A DNA stretch of 64,000 nt from Neoroseomonas soli (lineage in GTDB: Bacteria > Pseudomonadota > Alphaproteobacteria > Acetobacterales > Acetobacteraceae): assembly GCF_018129065.1 (NCBI RefSeq), contig NZ_JAAEDM010000005.1, positions 1-64,000 on the forward strand. The letters run 5' to 3'. Below, one piece after another: positions 9,225 to 52,012 of the stretch. Each line of letters starts with the position of its first letter. Within the stretch, counting starts at the first letter, position 1. A program made the position numbers and the translations under genes. Below the pieces are notes generated by a model, which saw only the letters and a program-made list of their open reading frames with translations, was not told the DNA's origin and did no database searches.

Positions 9225-9737
9225 CAGCCGCCCCCCTCATGCCGTTCCGCGTGAAGCCCGAACGTCCCTGGAACAACGCTATGCCGTGGCGCGGATGCCC
9301 GGAAGCGGATTCGGCGTGGGGAGGGAGGATGGCGCGGATGAGTGGGGCATCCGCGAAGCGCGCCGGCAGGCAGGGTCGGCGTGGCGGCCGCCTGCGGGAG
9401 AAAGTGGTGCCCAGGGCCGGACTAAGCCATCTGTCTATAGAAACCCTTATAAATCAATCGACTGAGTGGCACCCCATACCGGCGTCTTGTACCAGTCGAA
9501 TGGCCTTGCGGCAACGGGCGCTATTGCGGTCACCCGAGGCGGACCCGTCTCATCTACACACAGGGGCACGCCTGCTACGGCGCTATGAGCCGCGCGGCAC
9601 GCAAGCGCCGCGATGTTCAGGCCAGAAATTTTTTTTGGCAGCCGTGCAAGCCCTGAGGATCGAGATAGCGGCTGCGCGGCTCCCCCCGGTGGCGGGCCTG
9701 CGGGGGGTGGGGAGTGGCCTGTAGGGCGCCTGCGGGT
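9225..9737. other. Gene-free stretch holding the left element boundary
   Basis: 513 bases between livH and the first cargo gene. The first 180 are host-like and GC-rich. The attachment repeat lies at 9405-9421, and after it the composition changes abruptly to a less GC-rich, AT-run-containing sequence (for example a run of eight T near 9630). I see no gene in either half. Confidence 0.5.
9405..9421 (-). other. attL-type direct repeat (tRNA-Phe 3'-end fragment)
   Basis: Seventeen-base copy of the tRNA-Phe 3' end (with CCA) that is not part of a tRNA here: the sequence diverges at once after position 9421. It marks the far end of the integrated element. Confidence 0.85.
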
Positions 9738-10085
9738 TCACGCCGTGATGCCCTGCTGAAGGAGCACCGAACGGCACATCGCGAGGAGATCGGCCGCGAA
9801 TTCGTCTCGGGCGACGTGATCGCTGGTGATCATCTCCATCAGGCTGGGCACGTTTGCCATCGTCGTACGAGCGATGCCGTCAGCCACCAGGGCGAGCTTA
9901 GAGAGCTTCCAGAAGCTGGCTCTGTGGCCGGTCTTCTCAAGCCAGCGATTGGTGAACTCCGTTCTGATGTCTTCCTGCGGCCAGTCGCCGGTCTTGTGAT
10001 GATAACCAATGATCATCCGAACGAGGTAGCTGACCAGTATGGCCATTTCGTCCAAGTTCATACTGTTTTTTGTAAACAATCCCAT
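9738..10085 (-). CDS. Element cargo protein of unknown function (115 aa)
   Basis: 115 residues, mainly predicted helical, with a hydrophobic segment near residues 14-27 (MAILVSYLVRMIIGYHH) that could be an amphipathic or membrane-associated helix. I do not recognise a family. Codon use is far less GC-biased than in the host genes. It lies 28 bases downstream of the 198-aa gene in the same direction, so the two are probably one transcript and may act together. It could be a defence, immunity or maintenance module, but nothing in the sequence proves this. Confidence 0.7.
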   Translation of the reverse strand: MGLFTKNSMNLDEMAILVSYLVRMIIGYHHKTGDWPQEDIRTEFTNRWLEKTGHRASFWKLSKLALVADGIARTTMANVPSLMEMITSDHVARDEFAADLLAMCRSVLLQQGITA

Positions 10086-10113
10086 TTTAGAATTTCTCGA
10101 TCTCTCGGGGAGT

Positions 10114-10710
10114 TCAATAATAAAAATCGAGCGCCCGCTCGATGTCGGCTAGATGCTTGAACAATGGTCCTGATGAGGCCTCTTCGCGGATGTCCATCAG
10201 CGCAAACAAGTTCTCCAAATCCGCTGTGGCTGTTTCCGGCGGAAGGCCAAGTTCGTCATTTTTTCTGCGTACAGCATCGGCCATTTCGGCGAGGCATGTC
10301 AGGCCTTGCTTCGCGAGTATCCTCCGGGCGCTCTCGTCTTTCGGTGCCAGATGGTCCCGCGCTTCAACGCCCCTGTAAGACGTCGCCAAGTTGCAGATCT
10401 CGGTGACGGCGCGGGCCATGTTTACGTGCCCGATGTCCGAACCTGTTTCTGACAGGACGAGCGCGCGGGCAAACCTGACGGCAAGCACGGATGTCCCGCC
10501 GTCTGCACCCGCATCCGGCATAGCCTCGGCAATTCCCTGATCAAGAATGGTAAGTCGTTGTTCCACCGGGATGCGCTTATTGTTAGCGACGACGCACGCT
10601 CGTCGGAGCGTACTAGCGAATGCGAAGGCGGCGCCCGGCGTCTCGGTGGCCATACGCAGCAGGGTCGCAGTCACGGCCGCGCCTGTGGCTGCATGCTCTA
10701 TCGGACGCAT
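10114..10710 (-). CDS. Element cargo protein of unknown function (198 aa)
   Basis: 198 residues from the ATG at 10710. A GGAAGGA ribosome-binding site lies 12 bases upstream. A TTG at 10731 would add seven residues but has no such site. The protein is helical and soluble-looking, with no signal peptide or transmembrane segment and no motif I recognise. Upstream are two 15-base near-identical direct repeats (10743-10773) that look like an operator. It is first in a two-gene unit with the 115-aa protein. Confidence 0.7.
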   Translation of the reverse strand: MRPIEHAATGAAVTATLLRMATETPGAAFAFASTLRRACVVANNKRIPVEQRLTILDQGIAEAMPDAGADGGTSVLAVRFARALVLSETGSDIGHVNMARAVTEICNLATSYRGVEARDHLAPKDESARRILAKQGLTCLAEMADAVRRKNDELGLPPETATADLENLFALMDIREEASSGPLFKHLADIERALDFYY

Positions 10711-10742
10711 AAAATGTGGACATCCTTCCAATCGTAACAGTT

Positions 10743-10773
10743 ATGACTGAGCCTGATCATGACTGGGCCTGAT
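10743..10773. promoter_or_regulatory. Tandem 15-base repeats, candidate operator of the cargo unit
   Basis: Sequences atgactgagcctgat (10743-10757) and atgactgggcctgat (10759-10773) differ at one base and are spaced 16 bases centre to centre, i.e. about one and a half helical turns. They sit just upstream of the leftward cargo genes, where a repressor or autoregulator would bind. Confidence 0.45.
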
Positions 10774-11003
10774 ACTGCATGTTCTCGCCTTTTGCGGCGC
10801 CTGAACAGATGCGGCGGCCCCCGGGCCTCGATGGCCAATTCCCTCAACCGCGCAGCACAGACATTGCCCTGAGAGACCGGCGTGCCGCCGCCGTGCGGTG
10901 CGAGGTAAGCGGCAGTAGCCGAACCAGCGTTGGCGGCCTGTCCTTTAATGACCGTCTACGGACAGGTGCGGAAAAGGGCGTCTGATGGTGTCCAGAAACT
11001 ATC

Positions 11004-11032
11004 TTGACGACTTTAGGACAGGTGATGATTAT
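11004..11032 (+). promoter_or_regulatory. Candidate sigma70-type promoter of the resolvase gene
   Basis: TTGACG (11004-11009), a 17-base spacer, and GATTAT (11027-11032), located 34 bases before the resolvase ATG. Five and four of six bases match the consensus hexamers. Called by eye only. Confidence 0.4.
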
Positions 11033-11065
11033 GGACGGGGAAATAGGACACCCCGGGGCCACGCC

Positions 11066-11644
11066 ATGCACACCTTCGCCTACCTCCGCGTATCCACCTC
11101 CGAGCAGACGACCGACAACCAGCTTCTTGAACTGCGCACCGCTGGATACGAGCCGGATGCGGTCTATCAGGACACCATCAGCGGGAAGACCAGCGCGGCA
11201 GACCGACCGGACTTCGGGTGCATGCTGGACGCCATCACCCGCACCAAGCGGCCGAAACGCCTGATCGTCACCAAGCTGGACCGCCTGGGCCGCGATGCGG
11301 TGGACATCCAGCAGACCATCAGGCGGCTTGCTGAACTCGGCTGTGCGGTGCGTGTCCTTCAGCTTGGCGACCTCGATCTCACTTCCACGGCGGGGAAGCT
11401 GGTCATGACCACGCTGGCTGCCGTGGCAGAGATGGAGCGGGACATCCTCGTAGAACGCACCAAGGCCGGGCTGGCGAGAGCGAAGCAGGCGGGCACCACC
11501 CTGGGCCGTCCTCGCGTGACCGATGACGCCAAGGCAGCGGCCATCAGGGCCTTGCTCGCGGAGAATGTCAGCGTGTCGGAGATAGCGCGCCAGCATGGCG
11601 TGTCGCGCCAGACCGTGATGCGCCTGCGGGATGCTGCGGCGTAG
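11066..11644 (+). CDS. Serine recombinase (resolvase/invertase family)
   Basis: 192 residues. The N-terminal catalytic motif TFAYLRVSTSEQT places the nucleophile serine at residue 10. The middle holds the family motif KLDRLGRDAVD and TLAAVAEMERDILVERT. The C-terminus is a helix-turn-helix (VSEIARQHGVSRQTVMRL). Length is normal for a small resolvase such as those of plasmids and transposons. The upstream in-frame start at 10985 adds non-family residues and is rejected. A likely role is multimer resolution or inversion within the element. Two 31-base direct repeats follow the gene and might be its sites or a regulator's. Confidence 0.92.
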   Translation: MHTFAYLRVSTSEQTTDNQLLELRTAGYEPDAVYQDTISGKTSAADRPDFGCMLDAITRTKRPKRLIVTKLDRLGRDAVDIQQTIRRLAELGCAVRVLQLGDLDLTSTAGKLVMTTLAAVAEMERDILVERTKAGLARAKQAGTTLGRPRVTDDAKAAAIRALLAENVSVSEIARQHGVSRQTVMRLRDAAA

Positions 11645-11662
11645 ATCGCCATCATAGCCACC

Positions 11663-11752
11663 CACTGTAGGAAGACAGCAGCAGCGCCGTAGCTTGGTGG
11701 GTGGTCGCTGCTTCTACCCCACACTGTAGGAAGACACCGGCATCTCCGTAGC
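11663..11752. repeat. Pair of 31-base direct repeats, 59-base period
   Basis: Copies at 11663-11693 and 11722-11752. Each has a 15-base identical block cactgtaggaagaca, nine variable bases, then ccgtagc. The constant spacing inside both copies suggests a two-part binding site. They lie between the resolvase stop and the ParB-like gene, where they could be recombination sites, a parS-like site or an operator. Confidence 0.6.
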
Positions 11753-11865
11753 CGCTTGGCTGCCCTGAGAGGCCCAGCGTGCGCGTGCGCGCGAGAGGCG
11801 CCCCGTCATCCATCTTCCTTCCAGAGCGACCCCGCTCTCTCATCAACACCCAGGACAACCCGAAC

Positions 11866-12609
11866 ATGACCGATGCCACCACCGCCAGCCCCTCGGGCGC
11901 GGACGAGGCAACGCGCGAACTTTCGATCTCCGACCTTCTGCGCGACCAGCGATACCAGATCAGGGCGAAGACGGACGAAGCCGCAGTCCGTCGATACGCC
12001 AACGCCCTGCGCTCAGGCGCAGAGATGCCGCCTGTCCGTGTGGCCATCGTGGACGGCGTGCCGGTCCTTGTGGACGGACACCACCGCGTTGCCGCGCATG
12101 TGAGTATAGGCCGCAGCACGGTGATGGCTGTCATCGTCACCGCGCCAGCCTCGGAAGCCCGATGGCTCGCAGCACAGGCGAACCTTGAGCACGGATTGCC
12201 GCTAAAGCCGCGAGAGGCCCGCGAGGCATTCCGGGCCTTCATCCGGGCACGCAAGCACGTGCTGAAGGGCCGCAGGCGCCTGATGTCCTTGCGCGACATT
12301 GCGAAGGCCCTGAGTGGCGCCGCCACTCACATGTCCATCCATCGATGGATGAAGAAGGACTTCCCGAAGCTGTCGAAGGAATACGGTGGCGGGCCTGGGC
12401 CAACCTCGAACGAACCTCCTGCCCCGGAGAGCCAGCAGCAGGTGCACTTCACGGACGCGATGAAGGCGGTCGCCCAGGTGCAGATCACCGGCAGGGCCAT
12501 ACGAGACCCGGAGCTTCGGGGGCGCCTGATCGCGGCCATCGAAGACGGATTGAAGATCGTTCGCGAGGTAGGGCCGTGGACGCTGCCTGAGATGTCCCCG
12601 GACTTCTGA
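11866..12609 (+). CDS. ParB/Srx-fold nuclease-domain protein of the element
   Basis: 247 residues from the ATG at 11866. The N-terminal ~110 residues match a ParB N-terminal fold: an ISDLL...YQIRAKTDEAAVRRYANAL region, then PPVRVAIVDG.PVLVDGHHRVAA, where the Gly-His-His-Arg motif is the nucleotide-binding signature of ParB/Srx proteins. The middle resembles a helix-turn-helix (LRDIAKALSGAATHMSIHRWM). The C-terminal quarter is low-complexity then helical. The likely role is partition, transcriptional control or copy maintenance of the element. No ParA partner is present. Confidence 0.8.
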   Translation: MTDATTASPSGADEATRELSISDLLRDQRYQIRAKTDEAAVRRYANALRSGAEMPPVRVAIVDGVPVLVDGHHRVAAHVSIGRSTVMAVIVTAPASEARWLAAQANLEHGLPLKPREAREAFRAFIRARKHVLKGRRRLMSLRDIAKALSGAATHMSIHRWMKKDFPKLSKEYGGGPGPTSNEPPAPESQQQVHFTDAMKAVAQVQITGRAIRDPELRGRLIAAIEDGLKIVREVGPWTLPEMSPDF

Positions 12610-12876
12610 GGAAGCAGGCTGGGACGCCTGGGAGCCTCAGGTATTCCGGGGGTTTGAGTGGCGCCTGTATCATTCCATGCCCTCGGGGCAACAAAACCCG
12701 GTCCCTGGCGGGTGTAACATCGTGACAGGACCGGGCGGAAAGCCAGTTAAGACAAGGCTTTCAGCGAACTGACCTTCGCAGCGCCAGCGCGAAGCCCCGT
12801 GCAGTCCACATTTCGCGCAGGGCTGACCGCGCCATGCGCATCACCACCATCACCGATAACCGAAAGTCCATCAGCA

Positions 12877-13131
12877 ATGTCCACCGTCTACCTCAAGCCG
12901 GGGGAGCGGAAGCTCGCCCTGCGTGTCCGTCTCTCCTCGTCCGACAAGCACCGCCTGAACATCATCGCCTCGCGGTACGAAGGTGTCCTTGGCGCACGTC
13001 CCAGTGCATCCGTCCTCATCGCCCTGGCCGTTGATGCCCTGGCTGATCGTGTTGAGCGGGAACGATACCTTCCGCGACACCCGTCCCTCCGCACTAGGCG
13101 CAGCGCCTCTAACTCGATCTATGGAGGCTGA
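12877..13131 (+). CDS. Small basic element protein, possible ribbon-helix-helix DNA-binding protein
   Basis: 84 residues from the ATG at 12877. A short beta-like segment (RKLALRVRLSSSDKHRL) followed by two helices fits a ribbon-helix-helix or MobC-like accessory protein, but the match is only architectural. The stop codon is one base before the RNase HI start, so the two are translated together. An in-frame start at 12799 is possible but adds residues unlike a protein start. Confidence 0.55.
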   Translation: MSTVYLKPGERKLALRVRLSSSDKHRLNIIASRYEGVLGARPSASVLIALAVDALADRVERERYLPRHPSLRTRRSASNSIYGG

Positions 13132-13132
13132 C

Positions 13133-13618
13133 ATGTCCCAGTCAGCGGACGTTGTCGCGCCTGATGCGCCAGAGATGCCAACCATCGAAGCTTGGACGGA
13201 TGGAGGATGCAGCCCGAACCCCGGCCCAGGCGGATGGGCCTATGTCCTTCGGAACAGTGCCGGGGGCACGAAGGAACGGTCAGGCGCCGTGCCCGACACC
13301 ACCAACAACCAGATGGAACTACTCGCCGCCATCATGGCCCTGGAAGGCTTGTCGGGACCGCGCCGTGTCATCGTTCACAGTGATAGTGAATACGTCTGCC
13401 GTGGCATGACGGGTCGCGTTGCGGACTGGCAGGCGCGAGGATGGTGCACAGCCGCAGGCAAGCCGGTGAAGAACCTGGACCTCTGGCAGCGGCTGCTATC
13501 GGCGGCGGAACGTCATCAGCTGGAATGGCGATGGGTGCGGGCACATGCAGGCGACCCGATGAACGAGCGCGCTGATGCGCTGGTATGTCGAGCGCGGGAG
13601 AAGCACGCCAAGCGATAG
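13133..13618 (+). CDS. rnhA: Ribonuclease HI carried on the element
   Basis: 161 residues from the ATG at 13133, chosen because GGAGG (13123-13127) lies five bases upstream. Catalytic residues are all visible: Asp in AWTDGGCSPNPGPGGWAY, Glu in NNQMELLAAIMAL, Asp in HSDSEYV, and Asp in NERADAL. It cleaves RNA in RNA-DNA hybrids. A mobile element carrying its own RNase HI may use it to process replication primers or R-loops. It follows the small basic gene with a one-base gap. Confidence 0.92.
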   Translation: MSQSADVVAPDAPEMPTIEAWTDGGCSPNPGPGGWAYVLRNSAGGTKERSGAVPDTTNNQMELLAAIMALEGLSGPRRVIVHSDSEYVCRGMTGRVADWQARGWCTAAGKPVKNLDLWQRLLSAAERHQLEWRWVRAHAGDPMNERADALVCRAREKHAKR

Positions 13619-13861
13619 GCAGCGATGGCGTGACAGAACCACCATAGAACCGCCTGGGAGAGTTACTGGGCGGCTTTGCGGCTTCCCTGGGACCGGAGGG
13701 TAGCGGGAACGCACAAGGACGGCCCCAGGGAGCCCTGAAAATCTTCAGCTATCCACCCTCGCGACCAACCCGGCGAGGTTCTGGATTACTGATTTCGGCT
13801 GTGATTTCTTCGCCCCCGTCGCTGTCACACTAGCAGCGCCGTTGGAAGGAACTGACACAGC

Positions 13862-14002
13862 ATGACCATCAAGACGCGTAGTTTTGAACTGGAAGTCTAT
13901 CTGTTCGCCCCGACGATCTACGTCAGGGTCGGGAAGCTGTTCGAGTTCTACCTGTCCAGGCAGTTTCAGACGTTCGATTGGCGGCCTGCGAACGCTTCGT
14001 AA
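13862..14002 (+). CDS. Possible small protein, 46 aa
   Basis: ATG at 13862 with GGAAGGA (13844-13850) upstream and a TAA at 14000-14002. Translation begins MTIKTRSFELEVYLFAPTIY and shows an amphipathic, aromatic-rich pattern with Lys/Arg-rich ends. It lies between RNase HI and the convergent integrase gene. I do not recognise it. It could be a real small element protein, since codon choice is not random, but the evidence is thin. Confidence 0.4.
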   Translation: MTIKTRSFELEVYLFAPTIYVRVGKLFEFYLSRQFQTFDWRPANAS

Positions 14003-14051
14003 TCAGGAAGCCGGGGAGGGGCCGCTACGGTCCCTCCTACGCGATGCGCCG

Positions 14052-15584
14052 CTATGCCAAGCCTATGTCGTAGCGAGGGAACAGGGCCATCGCTCTGGCC
14101 TGCGCTACGGGGCTGAACTCGCCGTAGTCGGCACCAACTGTACCGGGCTCATGCCCAACGATGGCGTCCATCACATCGTGAGGGATGCCGACCTCCCGAG
14201 CCACGGTCTTGAAGCGGTGTCGCCAGCCGTGGTTCGGCTGCACATTCGGGTCGGTCACAACCGTACGCACGAACTCCGTCACTCGGTTCTTCAAGCCACG
14301 CCAGGGGCCGCGAACATCTCCGTCCGCTGCTGGCTTGAGGAACAGATGACCGGCCGGTGCAGCACCAACGAACTCAGGGAAGCCGAGGTCAACGATGTGC
14401 TGGTGAAGCACCACGTCCCTGGCTTCCTTGTTCTTCACCCGACCGGCCTCGGGCGTGATCTTGATGACCCAGTGATCGCCTTCCTGCCGTACATCCTGCT
14501 TGCGAAGCTGGGCCATCTCACCCACGCGCGCACCTGTGTAGGCGCACAACCAGGGAACCCACCGCTTCGCTTGGTAGGTCTGCATCCGCTCACCGGACTG
14601 CTTCAGGTGCCAAGCTGCACGTAGCAGCGACGTGGCCTCATCATCGCTCAGCCCCCGGCTACGCAGCTTCGGCTTTTTGCCGATCTTGATCGTGATGTTC
14701 GCAGCCGGGTTGGAGATCATCCTCCGGTTTGTGACGGCCCAGTTGAAGACGGACTTCAGCCCGGAAAGGTCACTGTCCTTCACGGTCTTCGCGGAGACCG
14801 GCTTTCCCGTCCGAGGGTTCACTTCCTGAAGGCGCTTGTCCTTGTAGGCCAGCACATCGTCGGCGGTGACACGTGCAAGATCGTCATGGCCGATGAAGCG
14901 GACGAACCTGCGAATGGTGGCCCGATAGCTCTCGTATGTGGCGGGAGCGAGGTCCGTCGCCTTCCGTTCGTTCCACCAATCTTCAAGCAGGCCGGTGATG
15001 GAACCTTTGGAGCCGCTTGGCTCCTCGGCCGCCACTGCGGGTTGCGGGGCGGACCACTCGGGAAATCGGTTGGCGTTGGGGTCAGGGCGATAGTCGCCTT
15101 CCGCGAGGCGCTTCAGGTACTCCGCTGCCTGGGTGAGCGCCCGGTCCACCGCTTCGATCAAGCGAGCCCTGCTGCGATCGTCAGCCTTCACGCCTGCTCG
15201 CATCAGGACTTGGTCCACCACAGGACCGACCCACTGTTCCAGCTTACCCGCTGCGGCGGCTTCACGGTGGAGCCTGAGCACGTGCTCCCACATTGTCGGC
15301 GTGTTCGGCTCGTCACCGGCTACGGCAACCAAGTCGGCATAGGCTAGCCCTGCCAGGGCAATGATCTGCTTGTGCGTCAGCGGCTCAGGCTTGGACCGAA
15401 GAACCTTCCAGTGGTTCGCTACCTCGGCCGCGACCTTCGCGTATGCGCTGCGCGCCTCGGTGGGGTGCTTGGTCTTCAGCGAGACCTTCACCTCACGCTT
15501 CCCGATGGCCTCTCGGAGATCGTCGGGAACGGCCTTGCGGAAATAATAGACACCCGTGACGGGGTGCTTGAACGGACGGCTCAT
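14052..15584 (-). CDS. int: Tyrosine site-specific integrase
   Basis: 510 residues from the ATG at 15584 (start MSRPFKHPVTGVYYFRKAVP, a phage-integrase N-terminal motif). An upstream TTG at 15617 is less likely. The SAM-like core-binding domain is followed by the catalytic domain with Arg in YTGARVGEMAQL, Lys in RVKNKEARD, His-x-x-Arg in HGWRHRFKT, His in IVGHEPG and the Tyr in ADYGEF. It begins ~100 bases from the tRNA-Phe copy, as is usual for tRNA-targeting integrases, and catalyses integration of the element at the tRNA 3' end. Confidence 0.95.
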   Translation of the reverse strand: MSRPFKHPVTGVYYFRKAVPDDLREAIGKREVKVSLKTKHPTEARSAYAKVAAEVANHWKVLRSKPEPLTHKQIIALAGLAYADLVAVAGDEPNTPTMWEHVLRLHREAAAAGKLEQWVGPVVDQVLMRAGVKADDRSRARLIEAVDRALTQAAEYLKRLAEGDYRPDPNANRFPEWSAPQPAVAAEEPSGSKGSITGLLEDWWNERKATDLAPATYESYRATIRRFVRFIGHDDLARVTADDVLAYKDKRLQEVNPRTGKPVSAKTVKDSDLSGLKSVFNWAVTNRRMISNPAANITIKIGKKPKLRSRGLSDDEATSLLRAAWHLKQSGERMQTYQAKRWVPWLCAYTGARVGEMAQLRKQDVRQEGDHWVIKITPEAGRVKNKEARDVVLHQHIVDLGFPEFVGAAPAGHLFLKPAADGDVRGPWRGLKNRVTEFVRTVVTDPNVQPNHGWRHRFKTVAREVGIPHDVMDAIVGHEPGTVGADYGEFSPVAQARAMALFPRYDIGLA

Positions 15585-15680
15585 CGCAAGGACCACTGTA
15601 CCCCCCGTTTGTACCAACGAGGAGCGCCGATCAGTCTGATTTCCGAGGATTTCCGCCCGATCAGGGGCTTAGGAGAAAGA

Positions 15681-15697
15681 TGGTGCCCAGGGCCGGA
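15681..15697 (-). other. attR-type repeat inside tRNA-Phe
   Basis: Same 17 bases as at 9405-9421. This copy belongs to the functional tRNA and lies next to the integrase gene, so integration restored the tRNA. Confidence 0.85.
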
Positions 15698-15756
15698 ATC
15701 GAACCAGCGACACTGCGATTTTCAGTCGCATGCTCTACCAACTGAGCTACCTGGGC
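15681..15756 (-). tRNA. tRNA-Phe (GAA)
   Basis: A 76-base cloverleaf on the minus strand. The 5' end is GCCCAGGTAGCTCAG, the anticodon loop reads CTGAAAA, giving anticodon GAA, the T-arm is GGTTCGATTCC, and the 3' end GGGCACCA encodes its own CCA. Acceptor-stem complementarity is complete. Its 3' 17 bases are the attachment site of the element, and the gene is intact after integration. Confidence 0.95.
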
Positions 15757-15829
15757 CCAGCGAGGTTCCTGATGGAACCCGGCGAGGCCGCGGGAAATAG
15801 CGGAGGCCGCGCCGCCTGTCCAGCGGGGG

Positions 15830-16021
15830 TCAGGCGGTTTCGTCGTCGCGGTTCATCGCGTCCTCGGGTTCGCCAGGAATCGCATAGGTTCCGCCGAGCC
15901 AGCGGCCGAGATCGACCTGTGCGCAGCGCGGGGAACAGAAGGGGCGGGCCTCCGCGCTCGCCGCCCGGCCGCAGACGGGGCAGCGGGATGCGGGGCGGGG
16001 GCGGCGGGGATCATGCGCCAT
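15830..16021 (-). CDS. yacG: YacG-type zinc-finger DNA gyrase inhibitor
   Basis: 63 residues. Four Cys arranged as CPVCGR and CSPRC, the YacG zinc-binding pattern, followed by DLGRWLGGTYAIPG, which is the family signature. In E. coli YacG binds GyrB and blocks DNA binding. Start codon lies 11 bases inside the end of the upstream RNase E/G gene, a common arrangement in alphaproteobacteria. Confidence 0.92.
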   Translation of the reverse strand: MAHDPRRPRPASRCPVCGRAASAEARPFCSPRCAQVDLGRWLGGTYAIPGEPEDAMNRDDETA

Positions 16022-50984: not shown

Positions 50985-52012
50985 TCCGCGTCGACGTCTT
51001 CATCCCTTGCTACAATTACGGGCGCTATCTGCGGCAATGCGTGGACAGCGTGCTGTCGCAGGAAGGATGCGAGGTGCGCGTCCTCATCATCGACGATGCA
51101 TCGAAGGACGACAGCCTCGCCATCGCGCGGGGCATCGCCGCGGAGGATGATCGCGTCTCGGTCCTGCCCCACCCGGTCAACCGCGGGCATATCGCGACCT
51201 ACAATGAGGGCATCGATTGGGTCACGGCGCCCTACATGCTGCTCCTCTCCGCCGACGACCTTGCCGCACCGGGGGCCTTCGCGCGCGCCACCCGGCTCAT
51301 GGAGGTCCATCCGGGCGTCGCCTTCGTCCATGGCCGGTCGCTCCGCTTCACGGAGGAGGCGGAGCTGGCCGGATTGGCGAGCGATCCCGGCAGTGGCGAG
51401 GCGCGCCTCGTGGCGGGCCGCGACTTCCTCGATGCGACCTGCCGCGGGGGCATCTGCCCGCTGGAGACGGCGACCGCGATCGTGCGCACGACCGCGCAAC
51501 GGCGCGTCGGAGGCTACGATCCCGCCTTGCCGCATACCGGCGATCTCGAGATGTGGCTCCGGCTCGGTGCGGTCGGCAATGTCGGCGTGATCGATGCCTG
51601 GCAGGCCTGCACGCGCATGCACGCCACCAACATGCGGCACGCCTATGCGGCGGACCGCATGATCGCCGATTTCCGGCACCGCCTGCGCGCCTTCGAATCC
51701 TTCGGCCGCAAATGCGCGCCGCAACTCGCCACGGCGCCGCAACTCGCCGGGCGCGGCCGCGCGGCCCTGTCCGAGGAAGTGCTCTGGGCGGCCGCCCGTG
51801 CCTTCGAGGCGGACGAAGGCGTGGATGCGGTGCGGCTCATGCATCTGGCGCGTGAACTGAGACCTGGCGTGGTCACCTCGGCCCTGTGGTGGAAGGTGGC
51901 GGCGCGGCTGATGGTCCGGCCACGTCATTGGCAGGGTTTCGCGCGGCTGCGTGGGCGGCTCGTGCGAGCCGGCGATGCAAGTCGGTCCGGGCAAGGTCGC
52001 GCGGGACCTTGA
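50981..52012 (+). CDS. GT2-family glycosyltransferase
   Basis: 343 residues from a GTG (GTGA overlap). VDVFIPCYNYGRYLRQCVDS, then YMLLLSADDLAAPGA with the Asp-Asp of the DxD-like site, and HTGDLEMWLRLG. The C-terminal ~100 residues are helical and may bind the membrane or acceptor. Co-transcribed with the previous GT2. Confidence 0.9.
   Translation: MIRVDVFIPCYNYGRYLRQCVDSVLSQEGCEVRVLIIDDASKDDSLAIARGIAAEDDRVSVLPHPVNRGHIATYNEGIDWVTAPYMLLLSADDLAAPGAFARATRLMEVHPGVAFVHGRSLRFTEEAELAGLASDPGSGEARLVAGRDFLDATCRGGICPLETATAIVRTTAQRRVGGYDPALPHTGDLEMWLRLGAVGNVGVIDAWQACTRMHATNMRHAYAADRMIADFRHRLRAFESFGRKCAPQLATAPQLAGRGRAALSEEVLWAAARAFEADEGVDAVRLMHLARELRPGVVTSALWWKVAARLMVRPRHWQGFARLRGRLVRAGDASRSGQGRAGP

Follow-up and report, generated by a model that had tools for sequence, protein, structure and literature searches.

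A small integrative element at a tRNA-Phe gene

In the window, that is, the whole stretch of 64 kb analysed here, two short minus-strand genes, A (10114-10710) and B (9738-10085), lie with an upstream tandem repeat at one end of a 6.3-kb element extending from att core to att core at 9405-15697. The element is bounded by 17-bp direct repeats: the one at the distal (cargo) end, 9405-9421, is identical to the one at 15681-15697, which lies in the 3' end of a tRNA-Phe(GAA) gene (15681-15756, minus strand). A tyrosine integrase gene (14052-15617, minus strand; phrog_1, E=1.9e-43; DUF6538, E=1.1e-17) adjoins the repeat in the tRNA gene, and A and B occupy the opposite end.

The genes between them are read on the plus strand. 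The first encodes a serine resolvase/invertase (11067-11644; PF00239, E=2e-35, scored on an ORF from 10985). It is preceded by three inverted subsites of 28, 34 and 25 bp with spacers of 22 and 5 bp (10938-11051, plus strand), which we take, from the dimensions and canonical spacing of Tn3, to be a Tn3-type res-like site, subsite III having one clear half only. As this site occupies 10938-11051, the most likely start of the resolvase is 11067. There follow a gene for a ParB-like protein (11779-12609; phrog_1033, E=6.3e-13), a short ORF (12877-13131) that resembles CopG/ribbon-helix-helix proteins by eye and has no database match, and an RNase H gene (13121-13618; PF00075, E=1e-38, scored on an ORF from 12983). 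Part of the latter (13193-13583) shares about 70% DNA identity with another copy in this genome (G000:C47:19746-20133) and with copies in the greater part of the genus, so that capture of a host-like RNase H gene by the element is possible. Searches of the element against Pfam, PHROGs and NCBIfam recognised neither an excisionase or replication initiator nor a relaxase or mobilisation gene, and family searches recognised no gene that redirects or uses a helper phage.

The corresponding site was compared in relatives by searching the tRNA-yacG stretch in 35 genomes of the genus, 34 of which matched, and inspecting 15 loci (L062-L076). At L062 (G003), positions 1477-1525 correspond to 9373-9421 of the window and positions 1505-1827 to 15677-16000, with livH upstream, so that the site is contiguous and free of the element. 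At L065 (G004), livH directly adjoins the same tRNA gene, again with no element, and at L072 (G001) about 1.2 kb separate it from the tRNA gene, on the same side; the remaining 12 of the 15 inspected loci have no livH match within the stretch compared. The att repeats and the uninterrupted site in relatives show that 9405-15697 is a small integrative element with a tyrosine integrase. An earlier, sequence-only reading of this DNA had called the pair a cargo module; this description is upheld and can be sharpened, as the pair lies inside a tRNA-integrated element whose site is empty in relatives.

Coding nature and upstream region of A and B

A encodes 198 amino acids from an ATG at 10710, which has the motif GGAAGGA 12 bases upstream, or 205 amino acids from a TTG at 10731, which has no obvious ribosome site; the ATG is the more likely start. 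B encodes 115 amino acids and begins 28 bases past the end of A. The length of A is indecisive by itself, an ORF of at least 205 amino acids arising in 126 of 1000 simulations of the region under a trinucleotide model. Both genes are nevertheless confirmed as coding by their codon periodicity, which lies beyond all shuffles: the 3-base periodicity of A (G=42.9) and that of B (G=48.4) were each matched by 0 of 500 dinucleotide shuffles. The same outcome, 0 of 500, was obtained for the ParB-like gene and the integrase, and A and B fall within their range. The intergenic controls were reached far more often (9422-9737 by 54 of 500 shuffles, 10732-10937 by 297 of 500), and the periodicity of the short ORF at 12877-13131 is weaker (25 of 500).

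The codon use of the pair is unfavoured by the host. Log-likelihood per codon against host usage is -0.225 for A and -0.019 for B, compared with 0.59-0.61 for livH, livM and murA, on a table built from four host ORFs, these three genes and hisD; the table is imperfect, since hisD was read out of frame. On the same scale the integrase scores 0.005 and the ParB-like gene 0.153, and the codon use of A weakly resembles that of the element. GC content drops to 54% at 9750-10500; low GC and host-unfavoured codons mark A and B, and to a lesser degree the whole element. The two adjacent short genes of the sequence-only reading are thus real, and their codon use is indeed atypical against the host table, a property shared by the whole element.

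The ATG of A is preceded, at a distance of 32 bp, by the tandem repeat (10743-10773, minus strand). Its units, 10743-10757 and 10759-10773, are identical at 14 of 15 positions with a period of 16, and such a pair was obtained in 0 of 300 shuffles of a 270-bp stretch and in 0 of 60 shuffles of the element. The pair of 15-base near-identical repeats reported just upstream is therefore present, and as far as sequence goes the term operator-like fits; the repeat, a putative operator, sits where one could be. The motif does not recur elsewhere in the 64-kb window with up to 2 mismatches. The same scan returned a further near-perfect tandem repeat, of period 18, at 51715-51749. The minus strand yielded no sigma-70-like promoter, which means little for a bacterium of this type.

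At the last codons of A, ahead of B, there is a weak terminator-like hairpin with a T-rich tail (10126-10143, minus strand). It folds slightly better than its shuffles (z -1.57), and it counts weakly against a simple A-B operon. A type III toxin-antitoxin system, in which the repeats would be the RNA antitoxin, was considered and dropped: there are just two 16-bp units, the interval from the repeats to A contains no terminator, and the leader folds at the level of its shuffles (z -0.17).

Searches for relatives and comparison of sibling elements

Neither protein matches a Pfam or PADLOC model. In NCBIfam the single match, for A, is far under its cut-off (E=0.015; 14 bits against 643), and among PHROGs only phrog_31328 was returned, for B (E=0.011); as the profile of the latter matched 0 of 190 genomes and also 0 of 14 controls, its genome search is uninformative. 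The absence of recognisable domains noted from the sequence is thus borne out. A PDB sequence search gave one match for A (E=0.075) and none for B. The structure prediction proposed for both proteins produced poor, all-helical models from single sequences (pLDDT 61 for B, where five helices are predicted, and 53 for A). Foldseek at E<=0.001 found no fold match for B in PDB or viral structures and none for A in PDB. The best match of A, a DUF416 protein (E=0.62, TM 0.33), counts as no evidence. Rx4-6H patterns occur in HEPN nucleases; one is present in A and two in B, and the pattern is too common to count.

Within overlapping sets of genomes, A was found in its own genome only, both in 1 of 146 and, at E<=0.001, in 1 of 279. 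When the threshold was relaxed to E<=0.1, matches appeared in a further 45 genomes of the order (46 of 395; E 0.0018-0.1); these are short, fall on differing parts of A and mostly lie within long frames, and they were taken as chance, not being inspected singly. B was likewise confined to its own genome in sets of 146 and 279, and matched 6 of 299 at E<=0.01, these sets also overlapping. The matches in the other five, all from the order (E 0.0014-0.0095), were rejected after inspection: four of them lie over one conserved gene in one genus and all cross a stop, three being in a non-coding frame of the gene and one across the frame start, and the fifth lies within a long low-complexity frame.

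Translated searches (tblastn) with A and B found nothing in 72,556 plasmids at E<=0.01 or in 50,697 phages at E<=0.1, and at E<=10 A gave four phage records of E 0.9 or worse. Collections of viral contigs and genome contigs, searched by a method that detects close relatives only, held no relative of either. The match of B to upf86.8 of phage P7 and its copies (E=0.4, seven records) was rejected: upf86.8 belongs to phrog_874 and not to phrog_31328, and 181 of 2000 shuffles reach the same score. Across all genomes, plasmids and phages searched, the pair turned up in its own genome only. The sequence-only reading had named lack of conservation of the pair anywhere as one of the results that would refute it, and within the collections searched this is what was found.

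The backbone of the element does have relatives. The ParB-like protein is related to proteins in seven other genomes among 119 searched, including those of sibling elements, and to none in the viral contigs; the integrase has relatives in seven other genomes among 35. Three siblings, all within the genus, are complete, with integrase, ParB-like gene and serine recombinase, and are bounded by att repeats of 26-28 bp at tRNA-Thr(GGT): those of G020 (L035 4871-10839), G014 (L036 3508-11588) and G031 (L037 5392-10934). Those of G006 and G022 are interrupted by contig ends. We define the distal slot as the stretch from the recombinase to the att repeat or contig end, and it is readable in G020, G031, G014 and G006; the comparison of cargo covers these four slots, and not the remoter integrase relatives (L102-L104) or the ParB-like match lacking an integrase in G016 (L040).

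The slot of G020 contains ORFs of 161 and 78 amino acids, small genes with no assigned function, and that of G031 an ORF of 79 amino acids related to the smaller of them (phmmer E=2.5e-6); the two related proteins are encoded at L035 5646-5882 and L037 10428-10667. In G014, the slot holds a 266-amino-acid protein with weak matches to PF18736 (E=0.33) and phrog_22031 (E=0.0047), nothing in PADLOC, and an RNAFAH motif which we take to be HEPN-like. In G006, a gene near the contig end has an HSDR_N_2 restriction-type domain (E=1.3e-7) and matches PADLOC models for a type I methyltransferase (E=2e-5) and a type IIG enzyme (E=0.0054). Comparison of A and B with 694 ORF segments from nine sibling stretches gave no phmmer match at E<=10, and the best blastp match reached only E=0.32. 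The distal slot thus varies from element to element and, in some of them at least, carries defence-like genes, as in two of the four readable slots, one of them on weak evidence.

Possible roles of the pair

We read A and B as a pair of accessory genes that a small element integrated at tRNA-Phe carries in its variable distal slot, and we hold this cargo reading as a whole to be probable (about 0.75). As for what such cargo would do, the likeliest function, tentatively put forward, would be to protect against phages or rival elements as a defence or toxin-antitoxin system does. Transcription of A and B would start at a promoter close to the tandem repeat, the repeat would be bound by the product of A or B or by another regulator of the element, which would keep expression low, and the pair would confer a conditional benefit on host or element. 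The toxin-antitoxin or defence role originally proposed finds no family, fold or homologue match, and what stands in its favour is positional. The positive case for defence consists of the slot contents, where two domain matches in siblings, one of them good and the other weak, make up the evidence; the slots of G020 and G031, with their small genes, count against it. It is rather unlikely that A and B are more specifically a defence or conflict system of an undescribed family, within a group of small ParB/resolvase elements of the genus that exchange systems beside the distal att.

The pair might instead serve the element itself by controlling how it is excised, replicated or transferred, for instance as a regulator and an excision factor. 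If the element moves, some unassigned gene is needed, as no excisionase or replication initiator was recognised, and the tandem repeat resembles a regulator site; siblings with the same backbone nevertheless do without A and B, and the pair lies at the end opposite the integrase, so that we regard this role as doubtful. A two-protein toxin-antitoxin pair stabilising the element would be suggested by two short neighbours with an upstream repeat, and by the small variable genes in sibling slots. Toxin and antitoxin proteins are usually shorter than A, which exceeds the usual length for either role; moreover, no toxin or antitoxin model in Pfam, NCBIfam, PHROGs or PADLOC matches, neither protein has a recognised DNA-binding domain, and the hairpin separates A from B. 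We regard such a pair as improbable, the least likely of these alternatives. It is also unlikely, if somewhat less so, that A and B have no function at present, being genes in decay or specific to the lineage: relatives are absent from all collections searched and an ORF of the length of A is not improbable by chance, as simulated above, but the frames are intact and their codon periodicity is like that of the integrase and the ParB-like gene.

In type II toxin-antitoxin modules, an upstream repeat precedes two short neighbouring genes. The layout here is the same, but A and B match no toxin or antitoxin family and neither was recognised as a regulator, and they differ from known anti-phage defence systems in matching no PADLOC model. 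The element resembles integrative and mobilizable elements (PMC5704250) in being small, with its own integrase and att repeats at a tRNA gene, but has no recognised relaxase or mobilisation gene. P2-like phages and P4-like satellites have hotspots of accessory genes whose changing content includes antiviral systems (PMC9122126), which makes variable slots in small integrated elements a known source of such systems. Our element is likewise small and integrated, with a slot of variable content; the backbone differs, being composed of ParB-like, resolvase and RNase H genes, no helper phage is known, and a defence activity here would be putative. If the slot of this group behaves alike, its uncharacterised genes are reasonable candidates for testing, among which A and B alone, without relatives, are a weak one.

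A last observation concerns the siblings of G014 and G006, in which a gene with a T7 gp14 internal virion protein domain lies immediately before the ParB-like gene (L036 6528-7340 and L038 460-1272; PF24072, E=1.9e-10 for the former, to which the latter is 69% identical). Such a gene would not be expected in an element of this size, and it hints at a link with phage satellites.
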